Source: Lacrimispora amygdalina (GTDB taxonomy: Bacteria > Bacillota > Clostridia > Lachnospirales > Lachnospiraceae). From it: a DNA stretch of 64,000 nt. Within the stretch, counting starts at the first letter, position 1, and every line of letters begins with the position of its first letter. The notes beneath the pieces are model-generated. The model searched no databases. It was not told where the DNA came from and saw nothing but the letters and a program-made list of their open reading frames with translations. This document shows, piece by piece, positions 17,709 through 40,218 of this stretch. Location of the stretch: NCBI RefSeq assembly GCF_003432035.1, contig NZ_QOHO01000071.1, positions 1-64,000 of the forward strand, given 5' to 3'. The position numbers were made by a program, and so were the translations under genes.

Positions 17709-17727
17709 ACTTTAACAGGAACCGGAT

Positions 17728-17750
17728 AATTTCCTAAGAAAATCCTAATA
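17728..17750 (-). promoter_or_regulatory. VanR-box-like tandem repeat upstream of ABC operon
   Basis: On the minus strand TCTTAGGAAATT (17728-17739) matches the enterococcal VanR box TCGTANGAAANT, as I recall it, at every fixed position except the third. A second TTAGGA lies 11 bases upstream. This supports direct activation of the ABC operon by the adjacent VanR-like regulator. Confidence 0.6.
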
Positions 17751-17766
17751 TCTGATTGTTTTTTTC

Positions 17767-18825
17767 CTAAAACCGGACCGGAAGAGAAACAGTAAAGGTA
17801 ACTGTATCCTTTTCACTGCACACAGATATCTTTCCACCGTGCAGACGAACAATTTCAGCCGCAATGGATAATCCCAGTCCTGCTCCGCCAGTATCCGATT
17901 TACGTGCATCATCCAGGCGGTTAAATTTTTCAAATATTCCACATAACTGATCCTCTGGAATCGTGTGCCCGTGATTTTCAAATATAATACTAACTGTGTC
18001 CTGCTGCTTTTTCGCGGATATTGAAATTTCGGTATCTGGGTAGCTGTATGCTGCGGCATTTTTGAGAATATTATTAAATACACGGGCCAGTTTTTCAGGA
18101 TCAGCATAAACCGTAAGTGTTTCATCTGCATGAAGTACAGCAAAATTACCCCTGGCAGATAAAACCGGATAAAATTCATCAATAAGCTGGACAAGCATAT
18201 AATATAAATCAACATTCTCTTTCGTGAGTTTGATTTGCTGTGTATGATACCGTGAAATTTCAAAAAATTCGTTAATGAGTTTCTCCAGGCGCAGAGCCTT
18301 TTTCAAAGCAATCTCAACATATTTTGCTTTTTGTTCTTCCGGCATATCGGGTGCTTCATCCAGCAGGCTCAAATATCCAATTACGGAGGTGAGCGGCGTG
18401 CGGATATCATGGGCCAGATACATTACCAGTTCGTTCTTTTTGTTTTCAGCTTCTTTTACAGCCTGCTGACTGAGCAGAACTGCCATTTTAATCTGGTTCA
18501 TCTGTTTTTCCACATCTTTTAGAGGTTCGGATAATTCAATAGTGCTGTCGTCTGGCTGATACACAGTTTTAGCTGCATTGACAACCTCTTCTAAATAACC
18601 CCATGGTTTTTTCCAGTAGTGATTAAAAAGACCGCAAAAACCTGCAACCAGATACAGGAAATAAATCAGTTCGATTCTCAGATGCATCCACTTCAAAAAA
18701 GGATTTAAACAGTTGCTTAATCCGTAATCAAGCAGGACCGCAACTATATATCCCATAAAAGTATAGATAATTAAAGTAATGCAGAGCTTCACACGCAGTT
18801 TCTTTTCCATGCTTTTATTTATCAT
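17767..18825 (-). CDS. VanS-like sensor histidine kinase
   Basis: A kinase of about 352 residues with two N-terminal membrane segments, a short outer loop, and HisKA motif YLAHDIRTPLTS followed by a stretch (SVIGYLSLLDEAPDM) nearly identical to what I recall of VanS from VanA-type enterococci. HATPase motifs are FNNILKNAAAYS and GGAGLGLSIA. I place the start at the ATG at 18825, behind GGAGGTGGCA; a GTG six bases earlier sits inside the ribosome site. No vanHAX genes are near, so it is a VanS homologue with another target, most likely the ABC operon. Confidence 0.9.
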   Translation of the reverse strand: MINKSMEKKLRVKLCITLIIYTFMGYIVAVLLDYGLSNCLNPFLKWMHLRIELIYFLYLVAGFCGLFNHYWKKPWGYLEEVVNAAKTVYQPDDSTIELSEPLKDVEKQMNQIKMAVLLSQQAVKEAENKKNELVMYLAHDIRTPLTSVIGYLSLLDEAPDMPEEQKAKYVEIALKKALRLEKLINEFFEISRYHTQQIKLTKENVDLYYMLVQLIDEFYPVLSARGNFAVLHADETLTVYADPEKLARVFNNILKNAAAYSYPDTEISISAKKQQDTVSIIFENHGHTIPEDQLCGIFEKFNRLDDARKSDTGGAGLGLSIAAEIVRLHGGKISVCSEKDTVTFTVSLPVRF

Positions 18826-18839
18826 TGCCACCTCCGTTT

Positions 18840-19535
18840 TTATATCTTATATCCCACTCCCCATATGGTTTTGATATATTGGGGTTCTTCTCCCGTATCA
18901 CCTAGTTTTTCACGCAAATGCCGGATATGAACCGTAATAGTATTATTACTTTTGCTATAATACTCATCCTGCCATATATCACGAAACAGCTTCTCAGCGC
19001 TTACTACCGTCCCCTTATTTTCAAGCAGAATATGAAGTATGGAAAATTCCGTGGGAGTAAGCAAAACAGGATTTCCATTGAGGAGGCATTCGTGAGTTTT
19101 CGTGTTTATTTCAAAACCCGAATAACATAAAACCGGGCTGGATTCCGATTTTTCCTTTGCTCCATTGTATTTTTTGTACCTGCGAAGCTGTGCCTTTACT
19201 CTGGCAATTAATTCAAGAGGACGAAATGGTTTTGTTACATAATCGTCAGCGCCTAAAGTCAGACCCGTTATTTTATCGGTTTCCTCATCTTTTGCGGTCA
19301 GCATAATAATCGGGAAGGTATCTCGTTCGCGGATTTTACGGCAAAGATCAAATCCGTTTACATCAGGCATCATAATATCTAAAATAGCAAGGTCAGGCTT
19401 TGTACTTTCTATACAGTTAAGTGCGTCCCTGGCTGAATAATATTTGAATACGGTATAATTCTCATTTTTTAAATAGACTTCTATCAGATCAGCAATATCC
19501 CGCTCATCATCTACTACAAGAATTTTATCATTCAA
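18840..19535 (-). CDS. VanR-like OmpR-family response regulator
   Basis: A 231-residue regulator close to enterococcal VanR over its whole length (for example LYLKNENYTVFKYY-type and SNNTITVHIRHLREK stretches). The phosphoacceptor Asp lies in LAILDIMMPD and the winged helix ends IWGVGYKI. The start is TTG at 19535 behind AAGGAGGAAACCAGT. A VanR-box-like TCTTATGAAAAT lies about 100 bases upstream, suggesting autoregulation. It pairs with the kinase 14 bases downstream. Confidence 0.92.
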   Translation of the reverse strand: MNDKILVVDDERDIADLIEVYLKNENYTVFKYYSARDALNCIESTKPDLAILDIMMPDVNGFDLCRKIRERDTFPIIMLTAKDEETDKITGLTLGADDYVTKPFRPLELIARVKAQLRRYKKYNGAKEKSESSPVLCYSGFEINTKTHECLLNGNPVLLTPTEFSILHILLENKGTVVSAEKLFRDIWQDEYYSKSNNTITVHIRHLREKLGDTGEEPQYIKTIWGVGYKI

Positions 19536-19649: not shown

Positions 19650-19660
19650 TTATATCTAAA

Positions 19661-19700
19661 AATAAAAAAGGGGCAAATCTCCATAAACGGCTCTGCCCCT
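19661..19700 (-). terminator. Terminator of the NRPS operon
   Basis: AGGGGCA (19670-19676) pairs with TGCCCCT (19694-19700). On the minus strand the stem is followed by TTTTTTATTTTT. It lies 32 bases after the thioesterase stop and closes the biosynthetic operon. Confidence 0.88.
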
Positions 19701-19731: not shown

Positions 19732-20430
19732 TTATCCAATGCCCATTTCCATCAAACTTCTGTTAATTGACCGGCAGGTTTCTGAGGTATTTGTATTTAT
19801 AAAAAAATGACCGCCTGGGACAAAATCCATTTGACATTTTTTGCAATACAATTTCCATTCATTGAGTACAGAAGGTGTGATCGTATCATCCAGTCCGTTG
19901 ATCAGGTAGAAACTGAAATCAAATTTATATGGCTGTTTGGTGAAACAATAGGACTCACAAATCTGAAAATCTGCTCTTAATGCAGGCAGGTATAGATCAA
20001 ACAACTCATCACGCAGCAACACTTCCTCTGGTATTCCACCCATAGCGATCATCTCCTGCCTGAATTCTCTGTCGTTAAGCTTATGATATGCAGTTTTGGA
20101 CTTTATATGGGGAGGTTCCGCCCCCAGAAAGAAAACGCCCAAAGGAGGCTTCCTCCCGTTTTCAAGAATTTTCCTGCACAATTCAAAAGTAAGAATCCCT
20201 CCCATACTAAAACCCATGAAACAGTAGTCCTCCCTGTCAATTCTTCCATTGATTGTCTGATACAGGTCATCCACTGCCATTTTAACATCTGCATAAGGTC
20301 TTTCTAAAAAACGGCTTCCTCTTCCAGCCAGTTCCAGAGGCTGTACCTTTACCTTGAAAGGCAGCAGATTCTGTATTTTTTTAAACATAACTGCACTGCC
20401 GCCTGCACAGGGTATGCAAAATAAATTCAA
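19732..20430 (-). CDS. Type II thioesterase
   Basis: A 232-residue alpha/beta hydrolase of the NRPS-associated type II class, which removes stalled or wrong acyl groups from carrier domains. GFSMGG gives the nucleophile Ser75, an Asp lies at 181/182 in NGLDD, and GGHFF gives His208. N-terminal CIPCAGGSA is the usual family opening. The start is TTG at 20430 behind AAGGGGAAGAGGCAA. It is the last gene of the operon, 19 bases after the aminotransferase. Confidence 0.9.
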   Translation of the reverse strand: MNLFCIPCAGGSAVMFKKIQNLLPFKVKVQPLELAGRGSRFLERPYADVKMAVDDLYQTINGRIDREDYCFMGFSMGGILTFELCRKILENGRKPPLGVFFLGAEPPHIKSKTAYHKLNDREFRQEMIAMGGIPEEVLLRDELFDLYLPALRADFQICESYCFTKQPYKFDFSFYLINGLDDTITPSVLNEWKLYCKKCQMDFVPGGHFFINTNTSETCRSINRSLMEMGIG

Positions 20431-20449
20431 TTGCCTCTTCCCCTTTCAC

Positions 20450-21853
20450 TTATGAATTGGCCGTTCTCATTTTAGAGGAAACAAGCTCTTTTAATAATCT
20501 CTTCTTTTTCAGAATCTCCTCTTTTTTACTGGTATCCAGTGCCGTCCTGAGAGTTGAATAAATATGATCCGCAATATCTTTCGTAATAATAAGAGGCGGG
20601 AACAGCGCAATCACATTTCTGTTATAATAAACGATCACTCCCAGAGAGGCGCAGTCCGCAACAATCTCAAACATCTCAGACTCACCCAGAGGTTTTCTGG
20701 TAATCCGGTCCTCTACAAGTTCCAGACCAATCATCAGACCACGTCCCCTGACATCACCTAACACTGGTCTTTCTTCCATCAGACTCTTTATCTTTTTTAT
20801 TAAATACGCCCCTGTTTCCCTGGAATTTTCCACCAGATTTTCGCGAAGAATAATATCAATATTACCCAGAGCCACTGCACTGCACACAGGATTTCCGCTG
20901 GAAGTGCTTCCGTGCTGAAAATAGTTATTCTCACCTTTAAAATTCTCATAAACTTTATTGGTAGCCAATACAGCGGATACCGGAAGATAACCGCTGCTGA
21001 TCCCCTTTCCCAGACAGAGGATATCCGGCCGTTTTTTCCACCTGTCCGTGGCGAAAAGATCTCCTGTTCTGCCAAAACCTGTCGTCACTTCATCGGCAAT
21101 CATAAGCATATCATACCTGTTTAACAGTTCCATAAGAGAATCGAAAAAGCTGTCACTGATTGTTACAATTCCCCTCTCTCCCATAACAGGCTCTGCTATA
21201 AAGGCCGCCATGGTATCAGGACCTTCTCTCTCGATCACTCTTTGGATTTCTTCCAGACATTTAAATTCGCATTCCGTCTGATCCAACGTCCCATATGCCC
21301 GGTGGTAGGAATAGGGCGGTTCCACCTTAAGCAGTCCCCCCGGCAGCGGTGCATAAAGCCTTTCATTGGTCTCATCTCCAGACAGGCCTATGGCTCCATA
21401 GCTTACTCCGTGATAACAGCCTTTAAAGGACAGAATTTTATATTTTCCCCGTTTGTCTTCTTCCTTACTTTGGCGGAAATACTGCCTTGTCATTTTAAGT
21501 GCCGTTTCAACAGCTTCTGAACCGTTGCTTCCTAAATAAGCCTTATCGTAATAATTTCCAGTGAGGGCACATAAGCAATCTGCAAGCTCACATGCCTTTG
21601 GATGTGTCTGGCGGAAACAGGAAGAATAACAGAGTTTTTTCATCTGGTCAAATGCTATATCTGCCAGTTCCTCTCTCCCATGCCCAACTGCCACATTCCA
21701 CAATGAGCCGCTGGCGTTGATGAATTTTTTCCCGGCTTCGTTATAAACAAATGGCCCTTCTCCTCTGACAATGGTCATAGGCCCCACATCCTTATAAGGC
21801 AGAAATTCCTCCAGATCCGTAAATGGGTTCCATAAATGATATGTTCTTTCCAT
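20450..21853 (-). CDS. Class III PLP-dependent aminotransferase
   Basis: A 467-residue class III aminotransferase. Gly-Ser at GSNGSEAVE binds the cofactor phosphate, Asp254 in ADEVTTGFGRTG contacts the pyridine nitrogen, and Lys283 in LGKGISSG forms the Schiff base. Class III enzymes use amines or omega-amino donors and can aminate aldehydes. In an NRPS operon with a terminal reductase, the simplest role is converting the released aldehyde to a primary amine, as reported for the myxochelin pathway. Making an unusual building block is the alternative. GGGAGGAGAAAC precedes the ATG. Confidence 0.9.
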   Translation of the reverse strand: MERTYHLWNPFTDLEEFLPYKDVGPMTIVRGEGPFVYNEAGKKFINASGSLWNVAVGHGREELADIAFDQMKKLCYSSCFRQTHPKACELADCLCALTGNYYDKAYLGSNGSEAVETALKMTRQYFRQSKEEDKRGKYKILSFKGCYHGVSYGAIGLSGDETNERLYAPLPGGLLKVEPPYSYHRAYGTLDQTECEFKCLEEIQRVIEREGPDTMAAFIAEPVMGERGIVTISDSFFDSLMELLNRYDMLMIADEVTTGFGRTGDLFATDRWKKRPDILCLGKGISSGYLPVSAVLATNKVYENFKGENNYFQHGSTSSGNPVCSAVALGNIDIILRENLVENSRETGAYLIKKIKSLMEERPVLGDVRGRGLMIGLELVEDRITRKPLGESEMFEIVADCASLGVIVYYNRNVIALFPPLIITKDIADHIYSTLRTALDTSKKEEILKKKRLLKELVSSKMRTANS

Positions 21854-21869
21854 GTTTCTCCTCCCGATT

Positions 21870-23985
<2,116 letters not shown>

Positions 23986-23989
<4 letters not shown>

Positions 23990-26900
23990 ACGATCACTTC
24001 CTTTTTAAAAAATCCGATTTTCTTTCCGTATTCCAGCATACTTCTGATATGATCCTCACTTACCCTGGACCACTTAAATCCCATACACTCCAAAATGCTT
24101 CTGGTATAGTCATTAACAATGACACGGACTGCACCTTCCAGAGACATATATGCGCTGGAATGAAGCAGAAGTGTATTAATGCAGTCCTCCATGGACTCAT
24201 TTTTATAGCTGTCGTATACAAAATCAAAAAATTCGCTAAACTCCATAATCTCCAGATTTTCCTTCATTCCTGCCCGTTTTAACTTATCATAGAATTCATA
24301 CATGCCAAGCTTATTCTCATTATAGACATGATAAATTCCGTCCTTCACTTCTTTTTCCATAGCCAGTTTCACAATCGCTTTGCTGCACTCGTCCACAAAT
24401 GTAAAATCCAAAAGTGTGGCATCCACATCTGGCATGGCCCCCAGTTCAAAAAATGCCTGCATAATCAGATAAAATGAGTTAAAATCTATATCTCTCTGAA
24501 ATTTCCCGTTTCTGGAATCAAATACAATCGTACCTATACGGAATACCTTAACCATGGCTCCCATTTTCCTGTATTCCCGGATCAAGTCTTCCGCCTCTTT
24601 TTTCGACCGCACATATAATTCTTCCGCGTTACCGTTCATTGCCTCAAAATCCTCATGGAACAAAACTTCCATATCATTGCTGTCAATGGATTCCATCACT
24701 CTTGTAGTGGACATATGGCAAAGCTCTTTTTGTTTTCCTACCATGCTGAATTTTAAAAGATTTTCCACACTTTTAACATTGCTTCTGTAAAAATCTTCAT
24801 ACTTTCCGAAATGCTCCACTTTACCGGCACAATGAAATACTGTATCTACAGTTTTTGCTAAGCTTTCGTATACGTCCTTTTTCTGTCCCAGCATATCCTG
24901 GGATAAATCTCCCTGAAATGCCACAATCCGGTTGCTGTACCGGGAATAGAATTCCTCTCCAAAATAAAATTCCAGATTCTCTTTCAGGCGGTTTATATAG
25001 TCATCACCTCTCACCAGCGCAAATATAATCATATCTGTCATGGTAAGCAGGGCTTCCATTAAATTGGCTCCTAAATATCCGGTTGCCCCTGTGAGTAGTG
25101 CTGTTTTATAATCTTTAAAGCCACTGGCCGAAAAGGATTTGAATTTTTTTTCAGCATTGTCAAGATAAGCATTATAATCATCATCCAGTCTCTTCTGTGC
25201 TTCCAGAGTATCTATGGCAGCATAATACTGCTGTTTAAACTGCTTCAGCCGTTCTTCCTTATAGTCATTCTTTCTCTTCTTTAGTCTGGCTGCCAGGGCT
25301 TCCACTGTCTGATACTGAAAAATCAGATTCATATCTGCCTCAAATACTTCATTGATTTTATTATAAAGAGTAATGCCTTTGATGGAGTCGCCTCCCAGCT
25401 CAAAAAAATTATCTCTTATACTGAACTGATTAAGCCCCAGAACGTCTTTGAAGTACTGATACAGAATTTTTTGATTATCTGTTTCCGGAGCCAGAACCTT
25501 TCGCTCATCAGACAGCTTGTCCAGATGGCTCAGCTGCTTTCTGTCTGTTTTTCCATTTGCAGTAAGAGGAATCGTTTCAATCTGTCTGATCAGAGCAGGC
25601 ATCATATAATGAGGTAGCTTTTCAGCAAGAAATTCCCGGATCCGGTCAACGGAGAGCTTTTCATCTGAAGTGAAGCATGCAATCAGCCGGTTTCGATTCT
25701 CTGCACTGACTGTACTCACCGCACTTTTCACGCCCTCAAAACGGAGCAGGGCCGATTCGATTTCCCCTAATTCCACCCGGTATCCATTTATTTTTACCTG
25801 ATTATCTCTTCTTCCCAGAAAACCGATGTATCCTGCTTCAGTCAACACACCCATATCCCCGGTTCTGTATATTCTTCCGAGAGATTCAAGTCTAAGAAAT
25901 GATTGTGAGGTTTTTTCCGGATCATTGCAATACCCTTCTGCTACGCCCGCTCCGCCTATGGCAATTTCTCCGGGAACACCGACAGGACAGATATTCTGGT
26001 GGTCATCCAGGATATACAGCTTCTGGTTCCCCAGCGGATACCCGTATGGTATGGTCGTCCATGTCTGACCCACCTCATTGACCGGATAGTAAACGGACCA
26101 GATGGAACCTTCTGTAGCGCCGCCAAGGCTGATCACTCTGGCATTTTCATACCTGTTTCTGATTCGGTCCGGTAAATCCACAGGTATATAATCTCCGCTA
26201 AGCATAACAACCCTAAGGGACTGTGTCTGTTCAAACTTCACCTCCAGCTCCTGACTGATCTCATCAAAGTAGTTTTCTTCGTCATTTTCCCTGGCAGACA
26301 GAAGAAGTTCAAAAAGTGCAGGTACAGAATTCCAAACAGTGACTGCCTCATCACTGACAAGCCGGTTTAGTTCCTCCGCATTTTTACTGTCCTCTGCAAG
26401 AATCAGGGTTCCGCCTGCTGCAAAGGTTCCGAAAATGTCATATACGGATAAATCAAAGGTAAAGGAGGATACTCCAAGAATTCTGTCATTCTCTGTAATT
26501 TTAAACCTTCTGTTTACATCAAGAATGGTATTCATGGCCTCTCTGTGTGTGATCACAACCCCCTTTGGAACTCCTGTACTGCCTGAAGTGTAGATGATAT
26601 AAGCAGTGTCATCCTCTTCTTTCCCGGTTTCTTTTAGTAAACCTTCTGTTTCCTTCATAAGCTCCTCAGCCAGATCAGCCGTAACCTCCAGCTTATAACC
26701 GCTGTTCTCCCGGATATATTCTTTCCGGTCCTCCGGAATCAGCGGACTTATGGGAACATACACTCCCCTGCATTTTAAAACTGCAAGAATTGCGGCTATA
26801 GTCCGGGCATTCCTGTATTCGTAAACGGCTGCCTTATCGCCGCTTTTCAGTCCTCTCTTTTTTAATCCTGCTGCCATTTTTTCAGCCAGGCCGTTTATCA

Positions 26901-29900
26901 TCTGATACGTATAGGCGCCTTCCCTGGTAATCAGAGCTGTCTGGCTTCCCCTTAAAAGGACCTGTTTTTCAAATGCATCCAGCAGCGTCACAGATTCCAG
27001 ATCACAATCCGTCTGATTGTATTGATCCACAAGCGCCAAATCCCTCTCTGAAATGAGGCTGCCCTCACCGGCTGCTTCAATCATGCAGGTATAACGTTCA
27101 AACATACGCTCCATCATAACCGGATCAAACAACTGCTGTACATAGTCCCAGGTAATACTAAGCCCTTCGCTGCCTGTCATCACCTGGCAATCCAGATAAA
27201 CCTGAGATGTCTGGCTGACGCTGTAGACCAGCTCTCCCATGTTTTCCAGACTGATCCCGTCCTCATTTTCAAAAATCATCCCTGTAAAAACATAAGGAAA
27301 TAAAAGTTCCCCCACCCGTTTCTGCTTTTTGGAAACCTCTTTGATCACACTTACTCCGTCATATTCCATGTGCTCTAAATTTTCGCTGATTTTCCTCTGC
27401 ACGTTCAGGCACTCTTCCCACAGCGCCGCAGACTCCCCGTTTATATCCAAAAGCATGACAGAGGTAAAATCTCCTACCATGTTTTTTACGGCCTGGTCAA
27501 ATGGAAACCTTGTAAATACCGTAACATTTAAGGTAACGGAATTCCTGTTGCTGTAAACAGCAAGAATTCTTCCATATACTGTCATGAGAAATGTGGAGGC
27601 AGTTATGGAATGCGCACTTATTTTTTCTTTCAGAGCCTGCCATTTTTCGATGGATATTTTATGAATCAATCTGTGAAATACGGGTTTCTCAAATTCTTTT
27701 GGAGTATGGATCAGTGGAAGTTCCGGTGCTCCAGAAAAGCTTTCCGCCTGTTTTTTCCAATAATTTTCTGCCGTTTTATAATACGGGCTTTTCTTCATTT
27801 CCTCTGCAGAAAGTATGTAATCACGGAAGGTAAATCCATTTTCATCAAGTGTTATACTTTCATCCTCATACACACGCATAATCTCTCTGATCAGGATTCT
27901 CATACTGATTCCATCGGCAATCAGCAAATCAAAGCCGGCCAGCAGCCTCACCCGGTCTTCTGCCAGGCGAAATGCAAAAAATTCAAATAAGGGAAAAACA
28001 CTTTGGTCAAAGACTCTATGGGAATGTTCTTCCCTTGCCTCCCTTAGAACCTCCTTCTTTTCTTCTGATGTCAAAGCGGTTAAATCCGTTTCTTTTATCT
28101 CATACCAGCCCGGATTTTCTAAAATCTGTTGAGTACCATCTGAATTCACCACTGCTCTTAACATAGGATTTGCCCGGATCACTTTATTCAAACTTCTGGT
28201 CAGACGGGGAATATCAAAATTATTTTCGATTTCATAATAGGCATGAGTGGAAACACCCCCCATTTTTAATCCGCTGCTTCTCCCCACAAAATAAGACCTT
28301 TGGATATCCGTCAAAGGAAAGCTATCGTATCGTTCCTCTTTTTTTCCTGTGACTGTAGTGTATTCCTTTAAGTCTGCTGCCCCCTCCTGCCTCCTGTGAT
28401 CAACGAAATCCGCAATACTTTCTATAGATCCAAGTGTCATAAATTCCCGGAATGGAATCTCCATACCAAATTTTGATTTTATCTCATGGACGACTGAGAT
28501 CATGGCCAGAGAATCTCCCCCAAGCTCCATAAATGGTCTGCTCACCGATAGATTTTCTGTTTTTAAATACTTCATCCATATTTCATACAACTCCTTTTGA
28601 GTTTTAGTCTGTGGCTCCCGGTCCATATGTTCCCTGCATTCCTTAATCTCAGGAAGGCTTTTTCTATCCAGTTTTCCGTTTCCGGTCAGGGGAATTCTGT
28701 CAAGAAAAACAATGGCAGCCGGAATCATATAATATGGCAGAATACTGCTTAAGTCTTCTTTTACTTTACTTTCACTGACCGTTTCATAAGTACACACGTA
28801 AGCACAGACCGATTTCACTCCGCTTTTAAATTCATGAACCAGGGCAGCCGCATTGCTGACGTAGGAAAGCCCTTTGACGGCATTTTCAATCTCTCCAAGT
28901 TCAATACGGAACCCATTGATTTTTATCTGCCCGTCCTTTCTGCCCAGAAACACAATGTGGCCTTCTTCTGAAAATACTCCATAATCACCGGTATGGTAAA
29001 TTCTTCCCAGTCCCTCTTTTTCATAAAATGCCGCTGCTGTTTTTTCCGGATCCTGATAATAACCTTCTGCCACGCCGGTTCCGCCAATGCATATCTGCCC
29101 CTTTACACCGGCAGGTGTGAAATCATCGGCTTCATCCAGCAGATATATTTTCTGATTAGCCAGCGGATATCCGTAAGGAATGGAAGCCCACTGATTCTTT
29201 ACCTCCTTAATGTCATAATAAATAGACCAGACCGACGCTTCTGTTGCTCCTCCAAGACTTACAATACGGCAATTTTCCAGGTACCCATAAGCATCCTGTA
29301 CGAGATTTTTGGGAATCCAGTCACCGCTTAACAGAACAAGCCTAAGAGACAGCAGGCGGCAAAAGGCATCACCGTTTCCCATATAATCATCAAAATACTC
29401 TTCACTTTCTGTCCTGTCATTTTTCAGACAATCTGTCATCAGCTGAAACAGTGCCGGTACAGAATTCCATACAGTGGCTCCTCTGTCAGAAAGAATCTTC
29501 ATCATCTGATCCGTATCATGGACATCCGGAATCAGCGCCAGTTCAGCTCCTGAAATCAGGGCACCAAAAATATCATAAACCGATAAATCAAAGCCAATGG
29601 AGGATACGCAGGCGATTACATCATGTTCCGACACATGAAATTTTCTATTGATATCCAGTATAGTGTTTGCAGCAGCTCCGTGTTTTACGTATACTCCCTT
29701 AGGCTGTCCTGTACTGCCTGATGTATATATAATATAGGCAATGTCATCCGGAGCACAGACCGTTTCCTCTTGTTCGCCTTCATCTTCAAAACCGTTATAA
29801 TCCATATTTCGTTCAAGGATTACAGAGCAGCTGCTTTTTTCAAGAATCAGCTTTCGTCTTTCCTCAGGCTGTATTTCATCAATGGGTATATAAGCAGCTC

Positions 29901-32900
29901 CGCTGCGGATTACTCCCAGTATATTGACCACAGTATCAGGATCCCGCGTTCCGATCACTGCCACGTTACTGCCTGACGTTACACCTTTCTTTCTCAGATA
30001 ATTTTTAACCCTGCCTGATTTTTCCCATAAATGTTCATAACTCATGGTATTTTCTCCACAGGATAAGATGACCTTATTTCTGAATTTCTCATGGGCCTGT
30101 ACGAATAGCTCATTTAAACTGACATAAGGAATTTCTTCTTCTGTGGCATTGTATGTATAGATCCGTTCCATATCCCCGGGCAGCAGCCTCTTTAAAAATC
30201 CTCTGTCTGAGAGTCCTGCTGGAAATCCGGTGTCTGTACAAAGTCCTGTTAAGTCATAAGTAAACAGGGAAAACATGCGTTCCAGAAGGTAATTCTCAAA
30301 TACCCCTTCTCTGTAGTCCCAGTTTATTACAAGAGATCCTTTCTCCTCATAAGCCTGGCAGTCCAGATCTACCTGGGAAGTCTGGCTGTAGCCTCTGACC
30401 ATACGTCCGATTTTATCTAAATTCAATTCAAAAGCATCTGAGAGAAGAGACGTAAACACTACCGGAAAACTGGCTTCTTTATTTCCCCTCACCTTTGCAA
30501 TCTCCCGCATAAACTCAATTCCGTCAAAGGATTTATGCATAAGTGCTTCCAGCATGTTTTTTTGTACACTGGAACAAAGCTCCATCAGATTCTCTCTGGA
30601 TAAATCAATGTCAAGCAGTAAAACAGAGGTGAAATCTCCAATTGCCTCTATCATTTTGCCGCTGCTCTTTCTGTTAAATACAGGAACATTCACTGTGAAC
30701 CGGCTGGTACTGCTGTATAAGCCCAATATCTTTGCATACAGACACAAAATAAGCACAGAAGGCGTTACAGAAAATTTTTTCAGTCCCTCTTTTATCTTGT
30801 CCCAGCTGGATTTGTCAAGCGTCACAGTTTTTCGTCCAAATCCCCGTAAGCTGTCCTGAGTGATATGATTTTCAGTTAACGGCGGAGCGGGCGGAAATTC
30901 TTCCAGTTTGTCCAGCCAGTACATCCGGTCCTTGTTGTATTGTCTGGAATATTTTTCCTCCTGCTTCTCCAGACAATAAAGGAAAAACCGTTGATCCGGC
31001 TGATCATCCTGATTCTCATGTTCGTAATAATCAGCAATTCCGTCTATGAAAAGTTTCAGACTCATTCCATCGGCAATAAGCATATCCATCTGAATCAGCA
31101 GCCGTATATCCCTTTCCCCTGCCTTTATGGCCTGAATGGAAAAAAGAGGTTCTTTTTCCGTATCAAATACCTGGCTTTTCTGAAATTCAAACTCCTGATC
31201 CAGCACTTTTTCTTTTTCGCCCTCTGACAGATGGGAAATATCCATTGTTTTTATATGGTACCAGTCCCATGTTTTATCCGCATACATAACCCCCTCTCTG
31301 GATATTCGTAAGCGAAGTGCGGGCTGACACCGTATCATGGAGTTAACCGCCTTCTCCAGCCGGTCAATCTCCCATGGAGTGGATAATTCATAAAGTACCT
31401 TTGTGGAAATATCCTCCTCCCGCCCGATTAAATAAGCTTTCTGAAGTTCTGTGGCAGGTATGGCATCCGGCAGTTCCCTGTTTTTAGCATTTGCTTCTTT
31501 ATCATTTCTTACCGCCTCTTTTTTCTCAGAAACAAGAGTGTTCAGACAGGTAAAATATGGCTGCTTTAAGAAATCTTCCACTTCAATTACTAATCCGTAT
31601 GTCTCTTCTATCTCATTTAACAAAGCAATCAGTTTAATGGAATCTCCCCCCAGATCAAAAAAGCTGTTGTTATCTGTTGGCTTTGCATCAAGAATCTGCT
31701 CCCACAGCCGGGCCAGGGGCTCACTTATGGGGGAATCTTCTTTGTTTCTGTATGTTTTTCTGTATTCATTCAGCAAATGATATCGTTGTACCTTACCGCT
31801 GGTGGTCTTTGGAATATTGTTAACGTTTAATACATGCCGGGCAGATATATGAAACGCCCTCTGCACCGCCTCTTTTATTTTTCTTTCTGTCTCATGAGCC
31901 TTTTCTCCCATACCCAGATGCTTGACAAAAACGATTAAATCGTTTTCTTCGTCGTCATAAACAGCGGCGCAGTCTTTGATTCCATTTTCTGAAAGAAGGA
32001 TATCCAGATCACTGAGATAGCAGTTTTGTCCATTAATAAAAAACATATCTTTTTTTCTGCCTGTAATAAAGAGCTTCCCATTCTTAATAAACCCCATATC
32101 TCCGGTTTTTAAATAGCCGTTTGAAAAGCTTTCCTCATTGATGAGGGCACTGTCGTAATAACCACAGGTTAAGTTGGGACCATGTATTAATATATCTCCG
32201 ATCTGGCCATCTTCCAGTATCTCTTCATTTTCATCTGTTATTTTTACATCGATTCCATCCAGGGGTTCTCCCACAGCCACATACCCCTTCTTTTCTGCCG
32301 GACTTTTTTTAATTTCAACCAGTTTGTCGCCGCAGTGGGGAATGGTTACTCCGATGCACGCCTCTGCCATACCATATACCGGCAGCATGGCATTAGGATC
32401 AAGCCCGCAGGCGGCAAACTTCTCATTAAACCGCTGTATAGAATTGATATTAATGGGCTCTGCCCCATTTAAAACTGCCCGGATACTGGAAAGATCCAGC
32501 GTTTTCATATACTTTTCTTTTACCATTTTTACGGACCAGTCAAAGGCAAAATTGGGCATGCCCATAATTGTTGTCTTATATTCCTTTACTTTTTGATAAA
32601 AGTATGTTGGATTTTTGATAAAATTCATCGGAGAAAAAATAATTTGATTCATGCCTTTGCAAAAAGTGGTTATATGGAACCCTACAAGCCCCATGTCGTG
32701 GGTCAGAGGCATCCAGCTTTCTGAAACGTCTTTTTCTGTCAGATTCAGCCGGCTTCCAATCTGTTCCACATTATAAATAAGATTGCGGTGCTTTAATACG
32801 ACTCCCTTTGGCGAATTAGTGCTTCCTGATGAAAACTGGATATATGCCGTATCTTCTCCCGTAATCTGCTCCGGACAAAATAAGAGATTACTGCTTTCTG

Positions 32901-33363
32901 CCTGTTTTTTCATATTCTCAAATATCAGGATATTTACCCGTGCTTTCACATCTTCGGAAAGAGTACAGAGCAGTTCTTCTTCCAGAATCAGCCGGGGCCA
33001 GTCGAGTTTTTCCAGAACAGCCTCCAGCTTTTTATTAATATTTGCGGATTTTGTTTCTGCTGCAGTTGTAACAGGTACTGCAATAATACCGGTATAAAGA
33101 CATGCCCAGAAAGAGATGATAAAGGACTGGGGATCACTGATCTGAAATACCAGCTTATCCCCTTTTTTCAGTCCCATCTTGAGTAAAACAGAACCCAGCT
33201 GTTTTGCTTTCTTTCTGATTTCCTTAAATTTCAGCCTGGATTCTGTTCCCTTTCTATCCGCAAAAACAATAAAACCGTCTTCCCTGGCTCTTTCCATGTA
33301 ATCAGGCAATATGTGATACGGTGCTCTGATCGTAATATTCTTTCCGCGTAAATGTGATTTCAT
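23986..33363 (-). CDS. NRPS: FAAL-T-Cy-A(Cys)-T-Cy-A(Cys)-T-reductase
   Basis: A 3125-residue assembly line. Residues 1-540 are a fatty-acyl-AMP-ligase-like loading domain (FSSGSTNSPKG; WMPLTHDMGL; LNGAEP). T1 carries Ser575. Cy1 (about 630-1060) has D760xxxxD765xxS768 and SQTSQVDLDCQ. A1 (about 1085-1570) reads DLYNLSLVWK at the specificity positions, the Cys code. T2 has Ser1618. Cy2 (about 1680-2110) has D1812xxxxD1817xxS1820. A2 (about 2125-2610) reads DLYNMSLIWK, also Cys. T3 has Ser2660. A thioester reductase (about 2750-3125) has TGATGYLG and Tyr2917xxxLys2921. The predicted product is an acyl- or aryl-bis-thiazoline aldehyde or alcohol. No oxidase or phosphopantetheinyl transferase is encoded within it. 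Confidence 0.93.
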
Positions 33364-33391
33364 AGTTTCTTCCCCCGTTTCATTTCAATTC

Positions 33392-34420
33392 TCATACGTG
33401 TTCGGCTATGTAATGCAGCAGTTCCTCTGTCTCATTCCACCCAAGGCATCCATCGGTAACCGACTTTCCATACACATTTCCGGAAATCTCCTGTCTGCCT
33501 GCTTCAATAAAGCTTTCTATCATTACCCCCCTCACCATCATCCGGATCTCCTCCGATTTACTCCGGCTTTCCAGTACATCATAAATAATCATTGGTTCCC
33601 TGGAGTAATCCTTACCTGAATTCGCATGGTTTACATCACAGATGATAAAGGGATTTTTAAGCCTCTGTTTTCGATATCTCTCTCCTATTTTCAGCAGCTG
33701 CTCGTATTGGTAATTAGGTACATATTCTCCCTTAAGATTTTCGTACCCTCTGATAATGGCATGGGCAAGAGGATTTCCTGAACTTTTCACCTCTCTGTCT
33801 CTATATATAAATTTATGTCCATGCTGAGCTGCAAAAATGGAATAGAATAACGTATCCGGATTGCCATTTGTGGGATTTTTCATACCAACAGGGCAGTCCA
33901 CTCCGCTGGATACAAAGCGGTGCTGCTGATCTTCCACGGAACGGGCTCCTATTGCCAGATAGCTTATAATATCCTGAAAATAAGCATAAGCTTCCGGATA
34001 TAGAAGTTCATCAGCCGTCGTCAGACCTGATTCCTCCACAACCCTTAAATGAAGATTTCTGGCTGCCCTTAACCCTTTCACAAGATCGGAATGCCCCTTT
34101 CCAACCGGGTAATGAAGAATTCCCTTATAGCCGTTACCGTTGGTTCTTGGTTTTGCCGTATAGATCCGCGGAATTATAAAAAGCTTTTTATTTAACTTCC
34201 TGTTAACTTTTGATAAGCGGCTGACGTAATCACAGACCGCATCCTCGCTGCTTGCAGAGCAGGGTCCTACAATAACCAGGAACTTATTCGTCTGATTCTG
34301 AATCACTGCAGCAAGTTCCCTGTCTCTTTCCAGTTTTCTGGCTGCCAGCCGGGAGGAAACCGGATATTCCTCTCTTAACTGTTCCGGAGACGGCATATCA
34401 TGTAAGGGTTTAAAACTCAT
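33392..34420 (-). CDS. aroF: 3-deoxy-7-phosphoheptulonate (DAHP) synthase, class I
   Basis: A 342-residue DAHP synthase of the AroF/G/H type, joining PEP and erythrose 4-phosphate in the first shikimate step. Recognisable motifs are VGPCSASSEDA, PRTNGNGYKG, PVGMKNPTNG and DVNHANSGKD. The ATG directly abuts the stop of the SagB-like gene (TAGATG), and the NRPS starts 28 bases after its stop. Placement inside the operon implies extra flux to chorismate or prephenate, either for an aromatic starter unit or for the U32 enzyme. No other shikimate gene is present. Confidence 0.93.
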   Translation of the reverse strand: MSFKPLHDMPSPEQLREEYPVSSRLAARKLERDRELAAVIQNQTNKFLVIVGPCSASSEDAVCDYVSRLSKVNRKLNKKLFIIPRIYTAKPRTNGNGYKGILHYPVGKGHSDLVKGLRAARNLHLRVVEESGLTTADELLYPEAYAYFQDIISYLAIGARSVEDQQHRFVSSGVDCPVGMKNPTNGNPDTLFYSIFAAQHGHKFIYRDREVKSSGNPLAHAIIRGYENLKGEYVPNYQYEQLLKIGERYRKQRLKNPFIICDVNHANSGKDYSREPMIIYDVLESRSKSEEIRMMVRGVMIESFIEAGRQEISGNVYGKSVTDGCLGWNETEELLHYIAEHV

Positions 34421-35413
34421 CTATTCATTCTCCTTTGACTGCTCACTCTCAGTTTCATCCTTGTAGCCGCATTCCATGGAATGCAGAAATATCTGGTCTT
34501 TGTTTAAATGAAAGCAGGATTCTATTTTTCCATATAACATATCTCCAATGGAGCAGGTCCCGATCCCTTCCTCTACGCTGACCCGGGTAATAAGACCTGT
34601 CATAATCCCACAATCCAAAATTCCGTAATAGTATCCCATTCCGCTGTATTTGGGCATACTGCATCTGGCATTGTACAAAAAATATATGGTAAAGGCTGAA
34701 CCGGCAAAAATCTCCTGATTGGTGATAAACTGGGACTTAATCGTGATGTTATCTCCCTCGTCCACAAGCGTAATTCCATTTATTACAGGGTTATAATAAT
34801 ACAATCCCTGTTCCACCCCCTCCACTCTGCCGGATTTTACAAACACATAGACATCAACCGGAAACAACCCCCCTGCACTGGGGTAATATCTGGTACTTCT
34901 TCTGTCCTCCCTGTTTTGCATAGACCCTAATATTCTTGAAAAAGAATGGAACGATATGGCTTTTTTTGAAAATCTCCTGACTGTTTCACGGCAGATTATA
35001 TCATTGCAGTAATCGGAATCCTTTAAAATATAAGTCAGCCCTTCCTTCACAAGCTGGCGCCCGGACTGCTCCAGCTTAAACTCCTCCAGTTCCTCTTTAA
35101 CAAATTTAATCGTTTCCGGATAATCATTTTGAAACAGCCTTGTCTGACTGTGAAACAGTTCCTTTGGTGTAATCACGGAACAGACCAGAATTTTCTTTTT
35201 CATAAAATCCTGTATTAAATTCTTAAGCAGACTTCTATTCTCTGTCTCAAACCGCTTTTCCAGATCTTCTGTCCTTGCTCCAAACTGGGTCAAATAATAA
35301 AACTCCGGAAAAAACTGTGCCGCCTGCCTTCCGTATCGAAACCGTTCCACGTAAAGTTCTTCATCCTTTACACAAAACTGTACTCCAGGAGACCAATAGT
35401 ACATCTCATTCAT
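34421..35413 (-). CDS. SagB/ThcOx-like FMN azoline dehydrogenase
   Basis: A 330-residue nitroreductase-fold protein of the SagB type. About 120 N-terminal residues precede the FMN domain; RRSTRYYPSAGGLFPVDVYV is the family hallmark, and the C-terminal part has IGTCSIGD. SagB-like enzymes oxidise azolines to aromatic azoles in thiazole/oxazole peptide pathways and in some NRPS pathways. The NRPS makes two thiazolines but lacks an internal oxidase, so this protein likely acts in trans to give thiazole(s). It is the first gene of the operon, with AAAGGGGCGGGAAT before the ATG. Confidence 0.87.
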   Translation of the reverse strand: MNEMYYWSPGVQFCVKDEELYVERFRYGRQAAQFFPEFYYLTQFGARTEDLEKRFETENRSLLKNLIQDFMKKKILVCSVITPKELFHSQTRLFQNDYPETIKFVKEELEEFKLEQSGRQLVKEGLTYILKDSDYCNDIICRETVRRFSKKAISFHSFSRILGSMQNREDRRSTRYYPSAGGLFPVDVYVFVKSGRVEGVEQGLYYYNPVINGITLVDEGDNITIKSQFITNQEIFAGSAFTIYFLYNARCSMPKYSGMGYYYGILDCGIMTGLITRVSVEEGIGTCSIGDMLYGKIESCFHLNKDQIFLHSMECGYKDETESEQSKENE

Positions 35414-35842: not shown

Positions 35843-36418
35843 TTGGGACGACCTTATTCAGATGAAGAGCGGGAAGAATTAAAAAATAAAGTAAAAGAAA
35901 TCGCTTCGCTCCTGTTTATGGAGGAAGGGTTTAAAAACTGCAAAATTCAGGAGATAACCAAAAAAGCCGGTATTTCCATGGGAGGCTTTTATACCTTCTA
36001 CAAAGACAAAGAAGCTCTTTACGAAGAAATCCTGCGGGATGAAAAAAACAGAATACGGCAGAAAATTCTGACAATCATTGATGAGGAAAACCAGACACCC
36101 CAGGGATTTTTTTCCGATCTGGCAAATGTGTTTCTGGAAAAAACCTCTACAAACAAATTTTATGCCAGTGAATACGGCGGTCTTTTAGAATCACTGGTCT
36201 GGAATAATGATGCATCTGCATCACAGGATAATTTGGACTTTATCCGAAAGCTTAAAAATATCTGGGCAGGCAAGGGGTTTTCCCTGTCAGCTTCCGATGA
36301 AGAAATCGCTTCTGCAGTTGCCGCACTGGCTGCTTTATGCATGCAGAAGGAAATGATTGGCGATGGCTTTTCTTTCTGGTATGAAAAAATTCAAAAATTA
36401 ATTCTGGAGCTTATTTGA
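35843..36418 (+). CDS. TetR-family transcriptional regulator
   Basis: A 191-residue regulator with an N-terminal three-helix DNA-binding domain (residues 10-60; ITKKAGISMGGFYTFYKDKEALY) and a variable ligand-binding C-terminal domain. The start is TTG at 35843 behind AAGGAAAGGGGG. It is divergent from the NRPS operon and directly upstream of the exporter/phosphotransferase gene, so it is the likely product-sensing repressor of one or both. Confidence 0.92.
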   Translation: MGRPYSDEEREELKNKVKEIASLLFMEEGFKNCKIQEITKKAGISMGGFYTFYKDKEALYEEILRDEKNRIRQKILTIIDEENQTPQGFFSDLANVFLEKTSTNKFYASEYGGLLESLVWNNDASASQDNLDFIRKLKNIWAGKGFSLSASDEEIASAVAALAALCMQKEMIGDGFSFWYEKIQKLILELI

Positions 36419-36498: not shown

Positions 36499-39400
36499 TT
36501 GAACCAATCAAAAAAGATCACCATACTTACGGGATTACTTCTCTGCATGGGTGCGTCAACTGTCATGCAGACATACTTCAGCAGTGCACTGCCTGCAATC
36601 AGCAGACAATTTCAATCCACTGCCTATTATTCATGGGTGCATGTCAGCTATATTCTGGCATCGTCCGCAGTAATCCTGTTATCCAGCAGTCTATGCGAAC
36701 GATTTGGTAATAAGAATAATTTCATAGCCGGATCTTTGCTTTTCGGCATCGGCACCCTTACTGCTCCCTTCAGCGGTTCCATGCTGCAGCTTATCGCTGC
36801 AAGAATTATTATGGGAATCGGTGCAGGTATCGTAGTGCCTGCAACTTATGGCATAATCGGAGACCAGTTTGAAAAAAGCAGCTATTCTTCTGTATTTGCA
36901 GCTTTTGCAGTTGTACAGATTATCACCAATGGCCTTGGCAGTCTGGCAGGCGGATATCTCCCGGAACTGGCATCCTGGCAGACTATTTTCGTTTTTCTGC
37001 TTCCCATTGAAATCATAAGCTTTTTCCTTGTATTCAGAAACATTTCCAACAAGGTAACTCCCCCTTCTAACGCACCCTTAAAGCTGCAGCGTCATCTGCT
37101 GATGATTGCAGCAATTCTGCTTCTTACCTTAGGCATCGAGTTTGCTTACAGAAGCCAATATTTTCTGCTGCTTGCAGGCATGGCACTTCTTTTTCTTGTG
37201 GTATTAAAAGACATTAAAAAAGATAACGCCATACTTCCAAAGGAATTTTTATGTGACTGCCTGCTGCGCAATCTCTGCCTGCAGATTTTTCTGATGGGGG
37301 CATTCTACAACATCTGTCTGGCTTATCTCCCCGGCATTATGCAGTTTACCCTAGGCATGGCGTCAAACCAGTCGGGTACTCTTTTAACTGTATTTGTATT
37401 ATCCATGGGAATTGGCAGTGTTCTTGGCGGAGTGGTTAAACAGAAAGAGAGGGAAATGATAGCCGCCGGCTGGATCACCTGCCTTACCGGAAGCCTTTTG
37501 ATGAAATCATTCATTGGAATTGCCCTTACGGCACTTGGACTGGGTTCCGGAATCCTGATGTCTGCACTTTTAGGCTATGCTGCAACCAGGACTGTTCACC
37601 ACGCTGCTGGAGTCAACAGCATGGCTCATCTCATACGCAACTTAGGAGGCAGTCTGGGAGCCATATTATTTCAATTTTCACTTCATTTTCCTGAAAATTA
37701 CTTTATTGGAGGAATCACTATAATTGCCCTGTCAGGTACTGCATCCATTCTTCTGGCATTCAAATATAACCCCGGCAAGACGCTAAAAAAAGAGGAGGCT
37801 TTATCTATGAAATATGTTATGAAATTCAGTGAAATAAGAAAGGAAGACATCTCTGCCGCAGGCGGAAAAGGTGCAAATCTGGGAGAACTGTTTAATGCCG
37901 GATTTCCGGTTCCCGATGGTTTCTGCATTACCAGCCATGCCTTTGATGATTACATGAGACGGAATGGGTTCGATTCTTCCGCATCAGGAACCAGCCTCAC
38001 CAGTGAGGAAATTGCTAAAGGACAGCTCTGGAAGGAACTGGAGGATGAAATCGCAGAATATTATCATGCACTTGGCCCGGATTCAAAGGTTGCGGTACGT
38101 TCCTCTGCCACTGCCGAAGACCTGCCGGAAGCAAGTTTTGCCGGGCAGCAGGAAACTTATCTCAACATACAGGGACTTAATCAGCTTTATCTGTCCGTCA
38201 AAAAATGTTTCGCATCCCTGTTCTCAACACGGGCGTCCGCCTATCGAAAGCAGACGAACTTCGACACCATAAAGATCTCGTTATCCGTCGTAGTCCAGTG
38301 TATGGTAAACAGCGAAATATCCGGTGTCCTTTTTACCGTGGACCCTGTTAGTAAAAATAAAAGCAGGATGATGCTCAATGCCTCATGGGGTCTGGGCGAA
38401 TCCATTGTTTCAGGGAAAGTAACTCCTGATATCTTTTTATACGACAGAGACCACCGGCAGATAGTTGAAAAACGGTTAGGCGATAAAAAGCTCCTGGTCT
38501 GCTACAGCGCAGACGGAACCGAAGAGAAAGAAACCTCCTCACAGCTAAGAAGTGAATTTAGTTTAACCGAGAAACAGGCAATAGAAATATTTGAACTGGG
38601 CAGAAAAACAGAACAGCACTTTCATTGCCCCCAGGATCTGGAATGGGCCATCTCTGAAAACAGGCTGTATTTACTGCAGGCACGGCCAATCACCACCTTA
38701 AATGGAAAAAGCAGCAGCGATATCCAGCTTACAAAATCCCAGAGAGCGGTATTAAATAACTGGATCGAACACTGCCCCACCCCGCTCTATCCCCTTGATG
38801 TGGCACCATGCCTGTTAGTGGATGAAGCAAAAAACAAAGTGTTTCATGAGCTGGGCATCTTTGTGGACAGCGAACTGACCATGGCTGATAACGGATTGCT
38901 TGCACTGTCTGCCGGAAAAATACATATCTCACCTAAGATAATTAAAATCCCTTTCCTTCTGAGCCGTTTTACCGATTTTTCCATCAATTCAGCCAGGACA
39001 AAGGATTCTTTTCATAATATAAGGAGGAAATTGGACACCATAGAGAAAACTGCCCTTACTTCATTACCTGCCAAAGCATTGATCCGGCAGATCATGGAAC
39101 TCATGGAACTGTCTGAGGAGCTTGCTTACACACGATTCCGATACAATATCTTTCCGTCTGTGGCTGTCTCAAAACTGATTCATCATGATTTGAAAAAAAT
39201 TGATAAAAATATGAACGAATATGATTTGCTGAGTAATCTTTCCTATAAAACCTGGAATTTAAACATCGAGTTAAAAAAACTATCCGGTTACATCCACAGC
39301 AGCCCTGAACTGGAGCAGTTATTTGTGGCGCTGGACAGAGCCAATCCTCGTGCCATATCGGAATTTGTGTCTAATCAGCCTGATTTTAAGTCGAAGCTGG

Positions 39401-40218
39401 AAAATTTCTTAAATGAATTCGGCTGGAAATCAAACAGCAGCTACTGTGCTTTCGGCTCCGTTTCATGGTTTGAGAATCTGGATTCCCTGTTTTCAATGCT
39501 GAAAGTTCTGCAAAACTCCGGAAGAAACGAGGAAGCATCCGATAAGTTTCAAAACATTATGACAAAGATTACAAAACAGTTTGATAAAAAGAAAGCTGAC
39601 CGGTTAAAAACGAAAATTGAAGAGATACGGGCATATCATGTAAACCGGGAAGAGAGCCTTTATCTGATAGAAATGTGCTACGGTCTTGCCCGCAGGGCAG
39701 CATTTGAACTGGCGAACCGTTTTCCCCAGCTGTTTGAACAGGCGGACGATATCCGGTATCTCACCCTAAACGAGGTCTATGAATTACCGGGCAACATGAC
39801 GGACCTGAAAGAATTGATTTCTGTGAGAAAATTCAACCGGCAGAAAAACGAAGTGCTTTGGTCCGGGTTTTCAATCGGCACAAAAACAAGTAATCAGAAT
39901 ACCCTGACCGGTGTTTCCGGAAACGGCGGACGATGCCGGGGCCGGGTACGGAAAATACTGACTCAGCAGGAATTTGATAAAATGCAGCCCGGTGATATAT
40001 TGCTCTGCCGCTATACAGATCCCTCCTGGACCCCCCTGTTTGTTCTTGCTTCGGCGGTTATATCGGATACAGGCGGCCCTCTGTCCCATAGTGCAATTGT
40101 GGCCAGAGAATATAACATCCCTGCAGTGCTTGGAATTGGAAATGCCACCGATCTGTTAGAGGATGGAGATGAGGTGTTCGTTGACGGCAGTTCCGGCAAG
40201 GTAATTATATTAAAGTAA
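36499..40218 (+). CDS. MFS exporter fused to Rph-type antibiotic phosphotransferase
   Basis: One open frame of 1239 codons joins two complete proteins. Residues 1-436 are an MFS drug exporter with about 12 membrane segments (ERFGN loop motif, [16 protein letters not shown]). From residue 437 begins a rifampin-phosphotransferase/PEP-synthase-like enzyme: an ATP-grasp part ([31 protein letters not shown]), a helical substrate-binding part (about 745-1110) and a swivelling His domain with His1197 in [13 protein letters not shown]. Rph enzymes phosphorylate an antibiotic hydroxyl using ATP. The fusion suggests phosphorylation coupled to export. The start is TTG at 36499 behind AAAGGGGGTG. An internal ribosome site may also give free Rph. 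Confidence 0.88.
   Translation: [1239 protein letters not shown]
37791..37809 (+). promoter_or_regulatory. Internal ribosome site and ATG at the MFS/Rph junction
   Basis: AGAGGAGG (37791-37798) lies eight bases before an in-frame ATG (37807) at exactly the point where stand-alone Rph proteins begin ([10 protein letters not shown]). The frame is open through it, so both the fusion and a separate ~803-residue Rph could be made. Confidence 0.7.

Follow-up and report, generated by a model that had tools for sequence, protein, structure and literature searches.

What might an anaerobe make with an operon that places a U32-family protein and a 3-deoxy-D-arabino-heptulosonate 7-phosphate (DAHP) synthase beside a heterocyclising nonribosomal peptide synthetase (NRPS)? 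Such an operon lies in the 64,000 nucleotides of Lacrimispora amygdalina DNA analysed here (assembly GCF_003432035.1, contig NZ_QOHO01000071.1, positions 1 to 64,000 of the forward strand), referred to below as the window. As an earlier sequence-only reading of this DNA had described, seven co-directional genes occupy the minus strand from position 35413 down to 19732. In order of transcription they encode a BmdC/SagB-like oxidase, a DAHP synthase, the NRPS, a methyltransferase, a U32 protein, a class III aminotransferase and a thioesterase, all domain identities having been checked against Pfam and NCBIfam. The reading that we prefer, to which we give a little less than an even chance as a whole, is that the operon uses bacillamide-type chemistry to build a capped bis-thiazol(in)e and adds a hydroxyl group to it independently of O2. 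The ring-making core is of a familiar type; the link between U32 and DAHP synthase is the new part and is worth testing.

The NRPS (3125 aa, 23986..33363; all operon features given below are on the minus strand) has the order loader-CP-Cy-A-CP-Cy-A-CP-R, as defined by Pfam and NCBIfam matches and a motif scan, CP being a carrier protein, Cy a heterocyclisation domain, A an adenylation domain and R a terminal thioester reductase; the motif scan gave three GGDS carrier sites. Two Cy domains with a D-x4-D motif had been predicted and were found, Cy1 with DMLIAD at residue 760 (30109..31476; PF00668 and motif) and Cy2 with DLLIAD at residue 1812 (27019..28338; PF00668 and alignment with BmdB). The pockets of A1 (28639..30108, placed by Pfam) and A2 (25489..27018, placed by alignment with BmdB) both read D-L-Y-N-(L/M)-S-L-(V/I)-W, more exactly DLYN-LS-L-VW in one and DLYN-(L/M)S-L-IW in the other, which we take to be the cysteine code; the cysteine specificity proposed for both A domains was thus upheld by the pocket residues, and for A2 also by its alignment with the bacillamide synthetase BmdB. 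Against BmdB the Cy2-A2 pair scores 740 bits, compared with 512 for the next structure (6lta) and 414 for the pyochelin synthetase PchE. The reductase proposed for release was likewise confirmed as a domain, R (23989..25131) matching PF07993 at 151 bits and retaining TGATGYLG and YxxxK.

The N-terminal loader (residues 1-545, 31729..33363) had been called fatty-acyl-AMP-ligase-like. It is an acyl/aryl-AMP ligase resembling fatty-acyl-AMP ligases (FAALs), but its nearest structure is McyG (PDB 4r0m, E 2e-68), with FAALs coming after that (3kxw, E 2e-63), and its acid may be fatty or aromatic. After residue 340, in a stretch that may be the site of the FAAL-specific insertion, the loader is shorter than the FAALs 3kxw and 7r7g, as is McyG. 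The loader of McyG takes phenylpropanoids. In the proposed pathway the loader would place an acyl or an aryl/phenylpropanoid acid on CP1, and the two Cy-A(Cys) modules would add and cyclise two cysteines. Since two Cys modules and two Cy domains are combined with an R domain and an acyl/aryl-AMP-ligase loader, the domain make-up predicts a capped bis-thiazol(in)e that ends in an aldehyde, an alcohol or an amine, the product class originally put forward. A bis-cysteine heterocycle with reductive release is highly probable.

The first gene of the operon (330 aa, 34421..35413) encodes a putative BmdC-type FMN thiazoline oxidase of the SagB/nitroreductase family. Its listing as a SagB gene was right as to family (TIGR03605, 81.9 bits, cut-off 78.4), but residues 3-320 match the bacillamide thiazoline oxidase BmdC (PDB 7ly4, E 3e-68), the closest solved protein, which places the ring chemistry among known kinds. 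By homology, oxidation of one or both thiazolines by this flavoenzyme is likely. A role as the dehydrogenase of a ribosomally synthesised and post-translationally modified peptide was rejected, as the closest solved protein is an NRPS oxidase; no search for a precursor peptide was made. The R domain would then release an aldehyde, which the class III aminotransferase (20450..21853; PF00202, 312 bits; PDB 6s54, E 3e-91) would convert to an amine. This enzyme keeps its GKG lysine, K283, presumably the pyridoxal phosphate lysine, and its best PDB matches include omega-transaminases. We lean slightly towards an amine end. The type II thioesterase (19732..20430; PF00975, 130 bits) would proofread.

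Judged by its sequence, then, the NRPS core is a bacillamide-type heterocyclising NRPS. Its Cy-A(Cys) module and the stand-alone FMN thiazoline oxidase have BmdB and BmdC as their nearest solved relatives, whereas two Cys modules, an acyl/aryl loader, a reductase with an aminotransferase, the U32 protein and the DAHP synthase set the operon apart from the bacillamide system. Bacillamide assembly begins with loading of Ala and ends with capture of tryptamine; since the operon has a FAAL/McyG-like loader and an R domain instead, it is not a bacillamide cluster. Compared with myxochelin-type release (MxcG/MxcL), an R domain again follows a module, here one for Cys, and an aminotransferase is present in the operon; the MxcG model matches the NRPS below its cut-off (792.9 versus 2300). 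In the myxochelin-type system MxcL carries out transamination after reductive release, while the operon enzyme is of class III, with omega-transaminases among its best matches. The Cy-A(Cys) logic is shared with yersiniabactin and pyochelin (matches to PchE, 7emy, and Irp2, 7jtj), but no salicylate synthase, imine reductase or polyketide synthase (PKS) was found in the operon by Pfam and NCBIfam, and release is reductive. The closest gut product family found is that of the bilothiazoles, whose bil cluster in Bilophila comes from a gut anaerobe and uses two consecutive Cys/Cy steps to give aryl-thiazolyl-thiazolines, but with a DhbE-like ligase and PKS extension (PMC11934131). The terms U32, SagB, nitroreductase and DAHP are absent from the main text of that report. 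The statement that this combination matches no known pathway is therefore not fully right, since the Cy-A module and 'SagB' protein are nearest to BmdB and BmdC and aryl-thiazolyl-thiazolines have been published.

The U32 gene (21870..23105) codes for a divergent member of the family, predicted to be an O2-independent hydroxylase. The protein matches PF01136 at 32 bits (cut-off 22.4), the best stretch covering 65 residues of the U32 domain; a profile built from ten relatives matches PDB 5d88 (E 9e-14), and hhalign joins the subfamily to the genome's own TrhP-like U32 protein (L151) with 95.7% probability. Seven conserved cysteines were identified, with the spacing CX3C-X31-C plus CX4CX10CX2C. 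C186, C190 and C222 are kept in all 89 aligned relatives, and C354, C359, C370 and C373 in 84, 83, 85 and 84 of them; these relatives are automatically picked open reading frames (ORFs), loci L096, L109, L110 and L111 having given none. Eight lose at least one cysteine of the second group, four being incomplete proteins (L064, L076, L087 and L095) and four having a substitution or gap (L088, L093, one of two in L094 and one of two in L100). This pattern leads us to infer two Fe-S sites, of which one would have just three ligands from the protein, and the operon U32 protein is probably an iron-sulfur enzyme.

The substrates described for characterised U32 oxidases are quinones and RNA (PMC6599085, PMC11574389). 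RNA hydroxylation by TrhP and RlhA needs prephenate and the U32 cysteines, and the authors of that work considered hydroxylation of RNA or other biomolecules by other U32 subfamilies plausible (PMC6599085); in anaerobic ubiquinone synthesis the hydroxyl is taken from prephenate, according to a review, which adds that U32 catalysis still lacks direct evidence (PMC11574389). Because characterised U32 proteins depend on prephenate (PMC6599085, PMC11574389), a prephenate-fed, O2-independent hydroxylation is the best reading of the operon. By analogy, the U32 protein has an even chance of being a hydroxylase, one that would use its Fe-S clusters, and oxygen donated by prephenate, to modify the cap or a ring. 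The DAHP synthase of the cluster would raise shikimate flux for prephenate supply, a step that we put forward more tentatively. A shikimate-committing gene beside U32, with no chorismate-consuming enzyme detected in the operon by Pfam and NCBIfam, fits a prephenate demand. The methyltransferase (295 aa, class I, S-adenosylmethionine-dependent, 23102..23989; PF08241, 62 bits) overlaps each neighbouring gene by 4 bp and may methylate the new hydroxyl. An O-methyltransferase directly follows U32 in Ruminiclostridium sufflavum (L038; PF01596, 246.8 bits) and in a same-family genome (L033; PF00891, Methyltransf_2), and these genes, together with the overlapping methyltransferase here, fit such a methylation. 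Among the 80 loci described below, queries with the window methyltransferase match L034-L038 and L100.

How often does this U32 subfamily accompany such synthetases? Relatives were found at E <= 1e-15 in 11 of 299 genomes of the same family and at E <= 1e-25 in 8 of 391 genomes of the class, the genome studied here included in both counts. A scan of named genomes gave 470 relatives, and counts out of 80 loci refer to the 80 of these that were kept. A Cy match occurs in the fetched stretch of 13 of the 80 (L034-L037, L039-L044, L051, L056 and L063), in hosts that comprise Lacrimispora, a Clostridiales metagenome-assembled genome (MAG), Peptoniphilus, Thomasclavelia, Dorea, Desulfoluna (Thermodesulfobacteriota), Anaeromicropila, Pseudoramibacter, Eubacterium, Anaerobacterium and Ruminococcus. 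U32 lies directly 3' of the NRPS in six of these loci (L039, L040, L041, L044, L051 and L063) and one gene past it in the other seven (L034-L037, L042, L043 and L056), the intervening gene in L042 being on the opposite strand. Since the set was collected through U32, the share of Cy-NRPSs that have a U32 gene is not readable from it.

A tree was built from 50 of the 89 proteins, after removal of those shorter than 350 aa or more than 70% identical to one kept. The label 'NRPS/PKS' (the labels are our own), carried by 15 of the 50 rows, requires 4 changes, compared with a mean of 13.1 after shuffling, and none of 500 shufflings was as low. Eleven of the 15 rows fall in one starred clade of 24 alongside 13 Ruminococcus/Oscillospiraceae rows, for which no Cy match was seen in the fetched stretches, some of them short. 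A-domain neighbours also stand beside distant U32 relatives (L032, L033, L171 and L172). In many genomes of the Ruminococcus flavefaciens type (L068-L092) a longer U32 protein of this subfamily occurs, reaching 592 aa, and the DNA fetched around its gene gave no Cy match. Dorea phocaeensis, Peptoniphilus duerdenii and Thomasclavelia saccharogumia (L023/L024, L114/L115 and L141) have related loader-Cy-A-U32 clusters that include a phosphopantetheinyl transferase, and AraC and ABC transporter genes in the Dorea and Peptoniphilus clusters are reminiscent of metallophore clusters. A yersiniabactin-like metallophore was rejected for the window operon, which has no salicylate synthase, but is possible for these relatives.

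The DAHP synthase of the operon (342 aa, 33392..34420) is of type I-alpha (AroFGH), matching TIGR00034 over its full length (residues 6-342, 243.9 bits, cut-off 173.2) and PDB 5cz0 at E 8e-58. The genome has five PF00793 matches altogether, and a further I-alpha copy (L148) shares 52% identity with the operon enzyme. I-beta enzymes lie near U32 in R. sufflavum, in P. duerdenii and at the genome's own second U32 locus, and this presence of different types beside the same U32 subfamily suggests repeated recruitment. The DAHP-like gene of R. sufflavum was considered as a KDO8P synthase and rejected, the DAHP family scoring far above (403.7 versus 101.6 bits). In L033 (7694-14968) an NRPS, U32, O-methyltransferase, MATE, DAHP synthase and AroM gene follow one another on one strand, and further U32 neighbourhoods with a DAHP synthase are L060/L061, L113, L111 and L175. 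In L113 (6936-12790), from a MAG titled Deltaproteobacteria, genes for an FAD-binding oxidoreductase and a squalene-hopene cyclase come after those for DAHP synthase and U32, a hint that this U32 protein acts on hopanoids.

A DAHP synthase occurs in 6 of 56 U32 neighbourhoods (L030, L033, L038, L060, L113 and L175), compared with 0.49-0.77 expected (Poisson P 1e-5 to 1.5e-4). The 56 comprise 39 dereplicated named loci and 17 of 20 from further genomes, three duplicates having been dropped and the 17 not dereplicated; the window operon, L034-L036, L061 (a near-copy of L060) and L111 stand outside the set, and L039, with its DAHP synthase outside the 10-kb flank, counts as a miss. Without L030, which is from the genome studied here, 5 of 55 remain (P 1.4e-4 to 1.2e-3). 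Over the 80 named loci the count is five (L038, L060, L061, L111 and L113) against 0.69 expected (P 7e-4), and it is one (L175) in 12 newly fetched neighbourhoods. For an AroB query, run as a control, the corresponding counts were 0 of 80 and 0 of 12. Base rates came from 34 matches (some being fragments of the same broken gene) in 17 genomes plus 5 matches in the genome studied here, and the P values are rough because each rate is a whole-genome average. Both genes had been listed as matching no pathway and both are present, but the U32 subfamily recurs beside Cy-NRPSs and DAHP synthases are commoner near it than expected, which makes them an interesting pair.

Host genomes were also surveyed for the route to prephenate. 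A chorismate synthase match was obtained in 18 of 18, covering only 67 of 327 positions in P. duerdenii, and chorismate mutase was detected in 15 of 18 (12 at first, then 3 of the other 6 by a second search).

Several observations weigh against a prephenate-fed hydroxylation. The motif CX6CX15CX3C, quoted for U32 oxidases in a review (PMC11574389), was present in the alignment in the genome's own TrhP-like protein (L151) but absent from the operon U32 protein and its subfamily. The subfamily shares with TrhP, RlhA and UbiU/UbiV PF01136 homology, a TrhP-like profile match and conserved cysteines, but differs in having its own seven-cysteine pattern and in residing in specialised-metabolite clusters. 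Since it has its own 3+4 cysteines in place of that motif, its chemistry may differ from that of typical U32 oxidases. P. duerdenii has only the chorismate synthase fragment, with a split EPSP synthase and a partial gene of the chorismate-binding kind next to it, and no chorismate mutase was detected there; in Dorea phocaeensis neither a type I nor a type II DAHP synthase was detected. Type II enzymes were rejected as the missing source, with none in 10 genomes. Perhaps prephenate is not the donor in every case, or it is imported, or clusters without the pathway are decaying. Among the 13 Cy loci, a DAHP synthase was found for only four, from two lineages (Lacrimispora, L034-L036, and Peptoniphilus, L039), contig ends limiting the call in L040. 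L037, the closest cluster outside Lacrimispora, has none between oxidase and loader and no PF00793 match on its contig. The match in L111 is a 42-residue one at a contig edge. At the own second U32 locus (L030:4132-8073, on the 8.3-kb contig C123), the U32 paralog is convergent to a truncated I-beta DAHP synthase, which together with an adjacent FkbO/Hyg5 chorismatase lies on the strand opposite U32; this locus is possibly a second shikimate-derived pathway. Finally, the AroB control used one query, compared with four for DAHP synthase.

Some of these observations bear on the strongest competing explanation, namely that the DAHP synthase feeds a phenylpropanoid or hydroxybenzoate starter to the loader and that the role of U32 is unrelated to prephenate. 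The nearness of the loader to McyG speaks for it, as do the pairing of a DAHP synthase with a chorismatase at the second U32 locus and the chorismate-pathway genes adjoining the P. duerdenii cluster. However, the operon lacks a chorismate-consuming enzyme, and in L060/L061, L113 and L111 a DAHP synthase accompanies U32 where neither a Cy nor an NRPS gene was seen in the DNA fetched, although the contigs of L111 and L113 are short and an AMP-ligase is present in L060. On balance, we regard a starter role as unlikely, while still deserving attention.

Two further explanations are improbable, each to a similar degree. In the first, U32 is no hydroxylase but passes electrons, re-oxidising the flavin of the BmdC-type enzyme without O2. 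An anaerobe would have to provide such a flavin oxidase with an acceptor other than O2, and 10 of the 13 Cy loci (L036, L037, L039-L044, L056 and L063) yielded a BmdC-like gene, that of L040 on another contig; L051 has none within its 12.6 kb, and the stretches of L034 and L035 were not followed as far as the position of the gene. On the other hand, such a gene was seen in the fetched stretch of only 4 of the 80 U32 loci, and a reverse search of the 391 class genomes (E <= 1e-30) found BmdC-like matches in four other genomes, three without U32 at E <= 1e-25 and one with U32 about 440 kb away; Cy-like matches adjoin the BmdC-like gene in three of these four. As an obligate partner of the thiazoline oxidase, U32 is unlikely, since BmdC-like genes occur without it. 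In the second, U32 and DAHP synthase are chance neighbours in an ordinary bacillamide-type thiazole operon. Methyltransferase, aminotransferase and thioesterase genes surround U32 only in the Lacrimispora-type loci and L037 among the 80, and L037 lacks a DAHP synthase; yet U32 stands directly or one gene after the NRPS in all 13 Cy loci (a set found through U32), DAHP synthases are enriched, and genes within the operon overlap by 4 bp. That U32 is a peptidase trimming a leader or prodrug is suggested by the name of the family PF01136 and is very improbable, the invariance of C186, C190 and C222 in 89 of 89 relatives suggesting a metal cluster, although no precursor-peptide search was made.

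To our knowledge, hydroxylation of natural products by strict anaerobes is largely open, and a U32 subfamily tied to thiazole NRPSs, with DAHP synthases nearby more often than chance predicts, offers a directly testable case in a small-molecule pathway, since the product can be measured and its oxygen traced. More speculatively than for the operon itself, the subfamily could be one of widespread O2-independent hydroxylases of specialised metabolism, with two Fe-S clusters (3-Cys and 4-Cys), prephenate as donor and, in some clusters, DAHP synthase as an 'oxygen supply' gene. If this were true, anaerobes would own a counterpart of the P450 and flavin hydroxylases of aerobic natural-product pathways. 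No paper joining U32 with an NRPS or natural-product cluster was found among the papers listed by a search that covered neither subscription papers nor preprints; in one candidate (PMC4048454) 'U32' is a strain name and not the protein family.

The genes from loader to thioesterase are 75-94% identical at the protein level in L034 (a 'Hungatella' MAG), L035 and L036 (both L. xylanisolvens), and upstream in L036 (L129) the DAHP synthase (93%) and oxidase (88%) follow in the same order. Because the loader-to-thioesterase run is conserved in three Lacrimispora-type loci, the operon is no assembly artefact. The genes had been described as often overlapping, which holds for the 4-bp overlaps at the NRPS/methyltransferase and methyltransferase/U32 junctions but not for the remaining gaps of 0, 28, 16 and 19 bp. 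As for one promoter and one terminator, an inverted repeat with a T tail (GGGGCA...TGCCCC, 19660..19700, minus strand) is visible by eye 3' of the last gene, but it is absent from the scan list and promoter-like matches are no more frequent than by chance (35 against 35.7 expected; for terminator-like matches, 9 against 13.7). Transcription of the operon from a single promoter is plausible.

Divergent from the operon, on the plus strand, are genes for a TetR-family regulator (35843..36418; PF00440), 89% identical to one in L. xylanisolvens (L129), and for an MFS exporter fused to a PEP-synthase/rifampicin-phosphotransferase-like enzyme (36499..40218; PF07690, PF01326 and PF00391; PDB 5hv1, E 1e-91). 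The fusion joins PPDK_N and PEP-utiliser domains in one ORF, has an 88% identical counterpart in L. xylanisolvens (L129), and may be tied to the NRPS operon, given its position; it possibly combines export with self-protection by phosphorylation. Directly downstream of the operon, at 15497-19535, are genes for a VanR-like response regulator, a sensor kinase and an ABC-2-type transporter, and a radical SAM protein (519 aa) is encoded near an ABC transporter at 9622-13320. The same genome has a second large NRPS locus (C91:41749-62691) with seven condensation domains over the cut-off and ORFs of 4603 and 2975 aa.

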